64,000 nt of DNA from the NCBI GenBank assembly GCA_016779205.1, contig JADHOC010000011.1, positions 1-64,000 of the forward strand. Direction: 5' to 3'. The translations under genes and the position numbers were made by a program. Below the pieces are notes generated by a model, which saw only the letters and a program-made list of their open reading frames with translations, was not told the DNA's origin and searched no databases. This document shows, one piece after another, positions 2,508-5,223 of this stretch; positions within the stretch are counted from its first letter, which is position 1; the number at the start of each line of letters is the position of its first letter. The stretch is from Planctomycetota bacterium (GTDB taxonomy: Bacteria; Planctomycetota; UBA1135; GCA-002686595).

Positions 2508-2993
2508 TCAGAGGGCCGCTTCGATCGCCGCCGTCAGCTCGGGCGCGGCGGGGTCGGTCGTGGGCTCGAAGCGCGCGAGCACCGCGCCGTCCTTGCCGAT
2601 GAGGAACTTGCCGAAGTTCCACTGGACGTCGCCGGGCCCCTCGGGGCTGGTGGGCTGCTGGGTGAGCCAAGCGTAGAGGTCGTGGCGTTCCGGCCCGTTC
2701 ACGTCGATCTTCCCGAACAGCGGGAAGGTCACGCCGTAGGTCGTGCTGCAGAAGGTCTTGATCTCCTCGGCCGACCCGGGCTCCTGCCCCTTGAACTGGT
2801 TGCAGGGGAAGCCGAGCACCACGAGCCCCCGATCCCGGTACTGCTCCGTGAGCTTCTCAAGCCCGGCGTACTGCGGCGTCAATCCGCAGCGCGACGCCAC
2901 GTTGACGACCAGGAGCACCTTGCCGCTGAAGGATTCGAAGGAGCAATCCGCGCCGTCGATGGTGGGCGCGCTGAAGTCGTGGAAGGTGGTCAT
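2508..2993 (-). CDS. Glutathione peroxidase family thiol peroxidase (cysteine form)
   Basis: This is a thioredoxin-fold peroxidase that reduces H2O2 and organic hydroperoxides, usually with thioredoxin as donor in bacteria. The family signatures are all present: NVASRCG with the peroxidatic Cys, GFPCNQF with a second Cys, GQEPGS carrying the catalytic Gln, and WNFGKFLI with the catalytic Trp and Asn. The peroxidatic position is Cys, not selenocysteine. From the ATG at 2993 the protein has 161 residues, the usual length. A GTG at 3074 would add 27 residues (MGRLQKLAFK...) and is a possible alternative, but neither start has a convincing Shine-Dalgarno. It is the last gene of a minus-strand run that includes a UGA-containing AhpD-like gene, which suggests an oxidative-stress theme (inference). 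It most resembles the BtuE/BsaA subgroup. Confidence 0.9.
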   Translation of the reverse strand: MTTFHDFSAPTIDGADCSFESFSGKVLLVVNVASRCGLTPQYAGLEKLTEQYRDRGLVVLGFPCNQFKGQEPGSAEEIKTFCSTTYGVTFPLFGKIDVNGPERHDLYAWLTQQPTSPEGPGDVQWNFGKFLIGKDGAVLARFEPTTDPAAPELTAAIEAAL

Positions 2994-3113
2994 CGGATCG
3001 AAGTCGACCTGGGGAGAGGGGCCGCTTCCGCGGCCCCGGAGGAGCTTGAAGGCTAGTTTCTGAAGGCGTCCCACGGGGACAGGGTGACGTCCCGGAGCCG
3101 CACAAGCCAGCGC

Positions 3114-4079
3114 TCAGCGCGTGGCCAGCCAGAGATCCCGGAAGCGGGCGGCGAAGCGCACGGGGAAGTCCACGACCTGGTCCGCACAGTGCGGGCTGAT
3201 GAGGATTCGCGGATGACGCCAGAGGGGATTCAACTCGGGCAGGGGCTCCTCCTCGAACACGTCCAGCCAGGCCCCCTCGACGTTGCGCTCGAGCGCGCCC
3301 AGGAGCCCCTCCTCCGAGAGCACCGCGCCCCTCGCCGCGTTGAGCACCAGCGCGCCAGGGGGCAGAAGGGCCAGCTCGCCGGCACCGATCATCCCGGCCG
3401 TCGACTCGGTGAGGCGGACGTGTAGGGAGAGGACGTCGGCCTGGGGGAGCAGGGCCCCGAGGGCCTCGGGGCCATGCACCTCGTCCGCGTCGGGGTGGGC
3501 GAGGCCGCTGGCCCGGACCGCCACCACCCTCATCCCCAGGGCCCGGGCGCGCCGGGCCACCTCGACGCCGGTGTGGCCCAGCCCCACCAGGAGCATCGTG
3601 CGTCCCGCCAGCGGGCGGAAGCGCGTGGGCGACCAGCGGGCCTCCTGCTGTGCGCGGAGCTGTTCGTGCAGGCCCGTGGCGAGGGCCAGGAGCCCCGAAA
3701 GGGCGCGCTCCGCGAGGAAGGGGGCGAGCACGCCCGCCGAGTCGGTCACCGTGACCCGCGCGGGGTCCCAGGGGGGCAGGTGGTCGCGCCCCGACCCGCC
3801 CACGTGGAACCAGCGCACGCTCGGCCACGCCAGCGCCTGCCCGTGGCTCGGGCCGGAGAAGGTGGCCGTCTTGATGGAGAGCACCACCTCGGGGTCGTGC
3901 TCCGCGAGGAGGCGCGCGACCTCCCCCGGCTCCCGCGCCGCGCTCCACGCAAGACCCGGACACTGCCCGAGGACCTCCGTCACCTCCTCCGGTTCGGAGT
4001 GCAGGAGGAGCGCAGGGATCGGCCCCTGCCCCTGCAGGGAGGGGGCGGTCCGGCTCACCTCACCTCGAGGCCCCGTCAT
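3114..4079 (-). CDS. D-isomer-specific 2-hydroxyacid dehydrogenase (GhrA-like)
   Basis: This is a predicted NAD(P)-dependent dehydrogenase that would reduce 2-keto acids such as glyoxylate or hydroxypyruvate to D-2-hydroxyacids. The C-terminal two thirds carry the Rossmann motif GLGHTG in the middle of the 321-residue chain, the NAARG segment with the catalytic Arg, the DVFEEEPL segment with the catalytic Glu, and ISPHCA with the catalytic His. The N-terminal 110 residues form the less conserved substrate lid, as in the GhrA/YcdW branch. The ATG at 4079 overlaps the stop of the upstream AhpD-like gene (ATGA at 4076-4079), which points to translational coupling. The exact substrate is unknown, and other members of the superfamily, such as phosphoglycerate or phosphonate dehydrogenases, cannot be excluded. 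Confidence 0.85.
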   Translation of the reverse strand: MTGPRGEVSRTAPSLQGQGPIPALLLHSEPEEVTEVLGQCPGLAWSAAREPGEVARLLAEHDPEVVLSIKTATFSGPSHGQALAWPSVRWFHVGGSGRDHLPPWDPARVTVTDSAGVLAPFLAERALSGLLALATGLHEQLRAQQEARWSPTRFRPLAGRTMLLVGLGHTGVEVARRARALGMRVVAVRASGLAHPDADEVHGPEALGALLPQADVLSLHVRLTESTAGMIGAGELALLPPGALVLNAARGAVLSEEGLLGALERNVEGAWLDVFEEEPLPELNPLWRHPRILISPHCADQVVDFPVRFAARFRDLWLATR

Positions 4080-4663
4080 CGCGGCGGCCTCGGCGGCATC
4101 TCCGGCTCCAGCTCCACGTCCACCCCGTCGGCGATCCGGTTGATGTAGTTGAAGTACCCGGTGACCTGGATCAGGTCGTGGATCGCCACATCATCGAAGC
4201 CCGCGCCGCGGAGCCGCTCGATGTCTGGCTCTCCCATGGCCCCGGGGGTGAGGGTCAGCTTCTCCGCGTACTCGGCGAGGGCCCGGTCGGCGGCGTCGAG
4301 CTCTCCCCCACGCCAGTCGGTCGCCACCGCGGCCACGAAGCGGTCCCGCTCCCCCGCGCTCCGCTCGGCCCACTCCTCTTCGACCTCGACACGGAGGTCC
4401 GCCTCGTGGCTCAGGGTTCAGTAGTGGCAGTCATTCGTGCGGCTCACGATGGTCGCCACCATCTCCCGCTGGCGCCGACTGAGCCCCTCAGGCGCGTACA
4501 TGATCTTCTGATAGAGCCCCAGGGACGCGTCGAGCACCGCGGGCGCGAGGCTCTGGGCCCTGACGATCCCGAACACCCGCCCGGCGCGGGCGATGGCGGC
4601 CTCGTAGCTCTTGGCGAGGCGTCCGGTGGCCTCGGCGACGGAGATGGTGCGGATCCAGGGCAT
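4076..4663 (-). CDS. AhpD-like peroxidase-related protein with in-frame UGA; probable selenoprotein (CxxU)
   Basis: A conventional reading splits this gene at a TGA (4418-4420, minus strand). The same frame stays open on both sides, giving 195 residues, the usual size of peroxidase-related carboxymuconolactone decarboxylase (AhpD-like) proteins. Residues 1-81 contain the family N-terminus and the block REMVATIVSRTNDCHY. The UGA is codon 82, followed by TLSHEADL. The family active site is Cys-x-x-Cys-x-x-x-His, and here it reads C79-H-Y-UGA82-T-L-S-H86, so the stop sits exactly on the second catalytic Cys. The downstream half keeps the family C-terminus (DLIQVTGYFNYINRIADG). A hairpin of bacterial SECIS type lies 9 nt after the UGA. 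AhpD-like selenoproteins have been reported in surveys of marine metagenomes. The alternative is a nonsense mutation or sequencing error, which would be a coincidence at this codon. The Sec machinery is not in the window. Confidence 0.8.
4390..4408 (-). promoter_or_regulatory. Candidate bacterial SECIS hairpin downstream of the in-frame UGA
   Basis: On the minus strand, CACGAGG (4408-4402) pairs with CCTCCGTG (4397-4390), giving seven base pairs with a single bulged C around the loop CGGA (4401-4398). The loop begins 17 nt after the UGA, so 16 nt separate them, and a G is the second loop base. Both features agree with the published bacterial SECIS consensus, which has a loop 16-37 nt from the UGA and a G in the first two loop positions. 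The hairpin lies inside coding sequence, as bacterial SECIS elements do. It was found by eye and no folding energy was computed. Confidence 0.6.
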
Positions 4664-4716: not shown

Positions 4717-5223
4717 CTACAGCCTACGGTCCCCGCGGCGAGCCAGGTTGTCCACCCAGGCACCGAGGACCATGACCCGACGCTGCTTGATAAGCCTCAG
4801 CTCATCGAAGGCCGCCGCGCGCTCGTGGTCCCCCAGCTGCACCAGGTACTGAGCGTAGTCGCCGTACCACCGGCTGACCGTCTCCTCGGCGCTCCGGATG
4901 AGCCGCAGCGCGGGGCGAGCGCCGGTCACCGCGGTGCTCTGCACCAGGAGGCGCGCGAGGAGCCGCCGGCGCAGGCTGGTCCGCCGCGGGCGCCCCCCCA
5001 TCCCGCGCATCAGCTCCTGGACGGTCGCGACGAGGTCCACGCCCTCGCGGTTCAACTCGACGGCGAGGGCCGCGAGCTCGGGATCCCGCGCGCGCCGCGC
5101 GATGTGGTCGTACACCGCCCGGGCGCCGATCTCGCTCAGCAGGGTCCGCTCGAGGTCCCTGAGGAGTGAGCGATAGGAGCCTCGCTGGTCCGCCGGGATG
5201 TCCTGGAAGCCGCGCCGCTCCAA
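4717..5223 (-). CDS. Ferritin-like helical-bundle protein (hypothetical)
   Basis: This is a 168-residue, almost entirely helical soluble protein with no signal sequence. Long amphipathic helices carry spaced acidic and His residues, for example SEIGARAVYDHIARR near residue 30, ELNREGVDLVATVQEL near 58, AEETVSRWYGDY near 112 and FDELRLIKQRR near 139. This pattern resembles the ferritin-like/rubrerythrin/COQ7 superfamily, in which Glu and His on such helices bind a di-iron centre. The match is by pattern only and the full set of metal ligands is not certain. The start codon lies 4 nt after the stop of the upstream lipoprotein gene, and the AhpD-like gene follows 53 nt later, so it is probably in the same transcript. 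That context favours a role in iron or peroxide handling (inference). Confidence 0.5.
   Translation of the reverse strand: MERRGFQDIPADQRGSYRSLLRDLERTLLSEIGARAVYDHIARRARDPELAALAVELNREGVDLVATVQELMRGMGGRPRRTSLRRRLLARLLVQSTAVTGARPALRLIRSAEETVSRWYGDYAQYLVQLGDHERAAAFDELRLIKQRRVMVLGAWVDNLARRGDRRL

Follow-up and report, generated by a model that had tools for sequence, protein, structure and literature searches.

The window, i.e., the whole stretch of 64,000 nucleotides of planctomycete DNA that was analyzed, contains on its minus strand a frame of 195 residues running from 4663 to 4076, as read from the sequence and its open reading frames. The sole internal stop of this frame is a TGA at 4420-4418, which corresponds to codon 82 and is embedded in the motif C79-H-Y-U82-T-L-S-H86. 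A first-pass annotation had described a single 195-codon frame broken only by this TGA and had placed the UGA at the second catalytic cysteine of the AhpD motif: Both points hold, and the strand, which it had left unstated, is the minus strand, as reading 4076-4663 on the plus strand yields a frame that does not encode the AhpD protein. Mechanical ORF calling splits the gene, as had also been anticipated, into two pieces of 81 amino acids (4663-4418) and 86 amino acids (4336-4076). At the 3′ end, the ATG of the adjacent D-2-hydroxyacid dehydrogenase gene lies within the stop codon of the read-through frame (ATGA, 4079-4076), which fits the full-length reading as well as translational coupling of the two genes. 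A scan of the window, which stems from a GC-rich genome, for further TGA-interrupted frames returned many frames without any sign of being genes.

Table 1. Features at the AhpD-like locus, with positions in the window.
Feature	Position	Strand	Details and basis
Predicted AhpD-like selenoprotein gene (TIGR01926, PF02627)	4076..4663	-	195 aa, Sec82; ATG 4663-4661, stop TGA 4078-4076
In-frame UGA, predicted Sec (U82) at the second Cys position of CxxC	4418..4420	-	Sequence; UGA or Cys in all aligned homologues
Predicted bacterial SECIS hairpin GACCUC-CGUGUC-GAGGUC	4382..4399	-	Fold, 54 homologues and published bSECIS constraints
Catalytic core with proton-relay residues E67, C79, Y81, U82, H86	4406..4465	-	Invariant columns; secondary structure; relay per PMC3141380
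D-2-hydroxyacid dehydrogenase (PF02826)	3114..4079	-	Start codon shares ATGA with the stop of the selenoprotein gene; putatively in the same operon
Glutathione-peroxidase family protein, Cys form (SRCGLT)	2508..3074	-	Next gene after the dehydrogenase
COQ7-like small helical protein	4717..5223	-	Directly upstream; PF03232 match weak, below cut-off

The surroundings of the gene are partly shared with relatives. In several congeners, including Poly30, the dehydrogenase is kept 3′ of the selenoprotein gene, and several congeners likewise retain the Cys-type glutathione peroxidase (GPx) two genes downstream. The COQ7-like gene is found upstream of and co-oriented with the Sec-type AhpD gene in 31 loci, some of which are duplicates of one genome; its product, which is neither a peroxiredoxin nor AhpC, is the most widely conserved neighbour found. 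The neighbourhood points to no firm substrate.

With Cys read in place of U, the window protein matches the TIGR01926 model ("peroxidase-related enzyme") with 131.9 bits (curated cut-off: 81.8 bits) over residues 2-187, continuously across the TGA, and the PF02627 CMD model with 39.1 bits. The relatives found in the PDB by sequence are AhpD-like proteins (6k40, 2oyo, 2pfx, 3c1l, and 2prr). An AlphaFold2 model computed from our own homologue alignment reached a mean pLDDT of 96.4, and its best Foldseek match is the AhpD of Deinococcus radiodurans (6k40, TM 0.83); the debrominase Bmp8 was also retrieved (6ohj/6ohi, TM 0.71-0.72). In the model, the catalytic core is located on a helix hairpin formed by helices 63-76 and 80-97. 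The proton relay of AhpD has been defined previously (PMC3141380), and its counterparts in the window protein are E67, C79, Y81, U82, and H86. Across 29 homologues, none of these five columns varies if U is counted as C, and U82 corresponds to Cys133 of Mycobacterium tuberculosis AhpD, the second cysteine of that motif. The protein thus combines CxxU with the relay Glu, Tyr, and His that characterize TIGR01926 and the AhpD-like CxxU family.

We searched for homologues in 151 genomes, comprising the source genome and 150 relatives. Matches were obtained in 123 of them, and among the matches listed nearly all carry an internal TGA. In every TGA form inspected, with identities ranging from 98% to below 40%, the U falls on the exact codon of U82, and the TGA is kept across genus, family, order, and phylum (Planctomycetota); the UGA forms include that of Planctomycetes bacterium Poly30, which lies on a complete chromosome (CP036434.1), as well as those of an Akkermansiaceae and a Rokuibacteriota metagenome-assembled genome. 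The few inspected homologues that lack an internal TGA (L155-L158, L160, and L161, with L159 of genome G354 left out because it had been read in a wrong frame) have Cys in the codon-82 column wherever this column is readable. The column holds UGA or Cys in all aligned homologues, i.e., the UGA aligns with a redox cysteine, and the homologues show no further damage. Relatives of the AhpD-like selenoprotein were also searched for in viral contigs, where none were found. Several genomes of the family encode a second, divergent TIGR01926-type paralogue with a UGA at the same position (L162, L163, and L165; L164 and L166).

A sample of 392 genomes from the phylum contains the UGA form in at least 119 genomes among the matches listed. 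The selA gene was detected in 114 of these 119 and in 128 of the 273 others (Fisher p = 2e-23, a significance that is inflated because the test ignores shared ancestry). Five genomes with the UGA form (G199, G209, G293, G314, and G397) have no detected selA, which is likely explained by incomplete assembly. With respect to two relatives of about 86% identity (L023 and L024), dN/dS amounts to 0.04-0.06 before the UGA and to 0.13-0.20 after it; two further, more divergent relatives (L025 and L028) were left out downstream of the UGA owing to indels, as codons were compared unaligned. Judged by these ratios, the codons on both sides of the UGA are under purifying selection.

Downstream of the UGA, a hairpin at 4399-4382 consists of a 6 bp stem and a 6 nt loop, CGUGUC, which starts 24 nt past the UGA, and has a folding energy of -8.1 kcal/mol. 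The hairpin agrees with all of the bSECIS constraints given in the relevant passages of PMC13188914: a loop of 3-9 nt, a stem of 4-16 bp, a G within the first two loop positions, a distance of 16-37 nt from the UGA, and a minimum free energy of at most -7.5 kcal/mol. The 41-nt minimum-energy fold of the single window sequence prefers an alternative, overlapping pairing (z = -0.99), and for this reason the assignment as SECIS rests on comparative evidence. Among 54 distinct homologues, a mean of 5.5 of the six stem pairs is formed, compared to 4.48 +/- 0.10 expected when synonymous codons are resampled from the same genes (1000 rounds, maximum 4.76; shared ancestry is ignored here as well). Stem pair +23/+36 covaries (29 C-G, 12 U-A). 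Moreover, the codon usage within the element is skewed: The Arg codon of the loop is CGT in 40 of 54 homologues but in only 67 of 800 cases (8%) in the rest of these genes, and the Leu codon of the stem is CTC in 49 of 50 against a background of 54%. The Cys homologues, a small control of six sequences, form between 1 and 5 of the stem pairs, on average fewer, and have no CGT at the corresponding conserved position. By this comparison, the hairpin is constrained beyond coding needs.

The source genome, a draft of 4.3 Mb in 36 contigs that is about 90% complete, encodes the complete selenocysteine machinery, for which the first-pass annotation had proposed to search. A tRNA-Sec with anticodon UCA was identified with 70.5 bits, and profile matches were obtained for selB (325.9 bits), selA (456.8 bits), and selD (319.8 bits); all four components, selA, selB, selC, and selD, are thereby found above the curated cut-offs. 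The selD gene (contig C23, 108916-109860) has an in-frame TGA of its own within the motif CAGUAAK, which corresponds to the known Sec form of selenophosphate synthetase. Additionally, five thioredoxin-like proteins (AhpC/TSA, TlpA-like; loci L172-L176 on contigs C32, C4, C26, C11, and C18) have an in-frame TGA at the first position of a UGPC or UPPC (UxxC) motif. Together with the AhpD-like protein, the organism carries at least seven predicted selenoproteins.

How the in-frame UGA is to be read can be judged from these data. A TGA is only one base away from TGC or TGT, and the assembly is a draft in 36 contigs, which would be compatible with a pseudogene or with a cysteine codon that was misread during sequencing. 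This explanation, to which we assign next to no probability, is refuted by the conservation of the TGA across genera, families, and the phylum: It is shared by dozens of independent genomes down to less than 40% identity, including the complete chromosome of Poly30, purifying selection acts on the codons that follow it, and the SECIS is constrained as well. UGA recoding other than to Sec does occur in some bacteria, and the codon might accordingly be read as Trp or Cys through a code change or suppression, or might act as a programmed stop that yields a functional truncated protein. We regard this as highly improbable, given that nearby genes terminate normally at TGA (e.g., at 4078-4076), that a full Sec system and several other Sec proteins with UxxC sites are present, and that Cys replaces U82 in the forms devoid of UGA; moreover, a protein ending at residue 81 would lack U82, the relay residue His86, and more than half of the fold, and the downstream half is conserved. 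Taken together, the frame, the conservation of the UGA, the Sec machinery, the comparatively supported SECIS, and the co-occurrence with selA argue that the gene almost certainly encodes a genuine selenoprotein in which UGA 82 is read as Sec, and we infer that Sec is incorporated in vivo.

For this selenoprotein, the following course of events may be envisaged. A ribosome arriving at the UGA of codon 82 would encounter the downstream SECIS, which would recruit SelB with Sec-tRNA(Sec), so that Sec is inserted in place of termination. In the folded protein, Sec82 would occupy the second-Cys position of CxxC within an all-helical AhpD domain, where the relay E67-Y81-H86 would activate it. Sec82 could then attack a peroxide or relay electrons to a partner peroxidase of the peroxiredoxin type. 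Resolution by C79 would give a selenenylsulfide intermediate, and a cellular thiol donor would presumably reduce it; donor and substrate are both conjectural elements of the scheme.

A role as peroxidase or reductase is suggested by analogy to the AhpD homologues of M. tuberculosis and D. radiodurans, distant relatives with about 34% identity at best, and we consider it probable. D. radiodurans cells become more sensitive to H2O2 when the AhpD-like gene is deleted, and CxxC mutants complement much more weakly (PMC8945050). The window protein could instead be a Sec protein that uses selenol/thiol chemistry to reduce a different substrate, for example in a reductive dehalogenation as in Bmp8, or by acting on a disulfide or metabolite connected with the dehydrogenase or the COQ7-like neighbour. 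Bmp8 shares the fold, the top conserved neighbour is COQ7-like and not a peroxiredoxin or AhpC, and the substrate binding sites of AhpD-like proteins are not known (PMC3141380). On the other hand, the closest match in both structure and sequence is the D. radiodurans AhpD with its peroxide phenotype, and several congeners carry a gene of the GPx family two genes downstream, which is why we judge a non-peroxidase function to be rather unlikely, albeit worth considering. A more far-reaching version, in which the near-fixed Sec form works with lineage-specific partners (the COQ7-like protein, the D-2-hydroxyacid dehydrogenase, and the Cys-type GPx) on a substrate beyond simple peroxides, for instance as a reductase that depends on Sec and serves quinone, lipid, or halogenated-compound metabolism, is speculative and appears quite improbable.

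Comparison to known systems places the probable peroxidase or reductase firmly within an existing family. The AhpD-like CxxU family (COG2128/TIGR01926, "AhpD-like 1") has, in the passages of the surveys that describe it, the same Sec position, widespread Cys homologues, and a downstream bacterial SECIS; nothing essential distinguishes the window member, which is that of a planctomycete and lies beside COQ7-like, D-2-hydroxyacid dehydrogenase, and GPx genes. The family NF041238 (AhpD_rel_CFYUT), "hypothetical protein 1" of the Sargasso Sea survey, has an AhpD-type domain and CxxU in common with the window protein, but its members are longer (357-position model), and at 58.4 bits against a curated cut-off of 175 the window protein is not one of them. 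The D. radiodurans protein DR1765 (6k40) shares the fold, 34% identity in the structural alignment, the CxxC motif, and the relay, whereas its second motif position is occupied by Cys instead of Sec. The AhpD of M. tuberculosis has the helix-hairpin active site with the Glu, CxxC, and His relay in common; however, it is remote in sequence, and has His where the window protein has Tyr inside the motif as well as Cys in place of Sec. Its electron donors are lipoyl enzymes, which may or may not also serve the window protein.

The first-pass annotation had proposed a probable new selenoprotein. The selenoprotein part is borne out by machinery, homologues, and SECIS, but the claim to novelty is not: AhpD-like CxxU selenoproteins have been predicted since 2005, and the window protein is not a new kind. 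In line with its remark that such proteins were known from metagenome surveys, the relevant passages report 27 AhpD-like CxxU sequences of COG2128 in the Sargasso Sea survey of 2005 (PMC1088965) and 299 sequences of "AhpD-like 1", the fourth most numerous family in its table, in the GOS survey of 2008 (PMC2398784), and those of a 2026 catalogue place "AhpD-like protein, TIGR01926, CxxU" in its set of high-confidence predicted families (PMC13188914). A 2006 tally for sequenced bacteria included COG2128 selenoproteins (PMC1794560), and a later survey puts the share of AhpD-like genes among marine selenoprotein genes at 9.5% (PMC9402790). Selenoproteins of other planctomycetes were described in 2016 with AhpD unmentioned in the main text (PMC4807772), and the survey passages on the family in PMC1088965, PMC2398784, and PMC13188914 hold no discussion of Planctomycetota. 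The earlier statement was right on the narrower point that the CxxU form is uncharacterized, as our literature search found no experimental study of an AhpD-like Sec form.

The analysis corrects a split-gene annotation error and leaves ideas on recoding and protein families unchanged. In much of one lineage of the Planctomycetota, the Sec form of a catalogued family is close to fixation and has a clearly constrained SECIS. We found no experimental study of this form, which offers a clean target for asking what Sec adds to AhpD-type catalysis.
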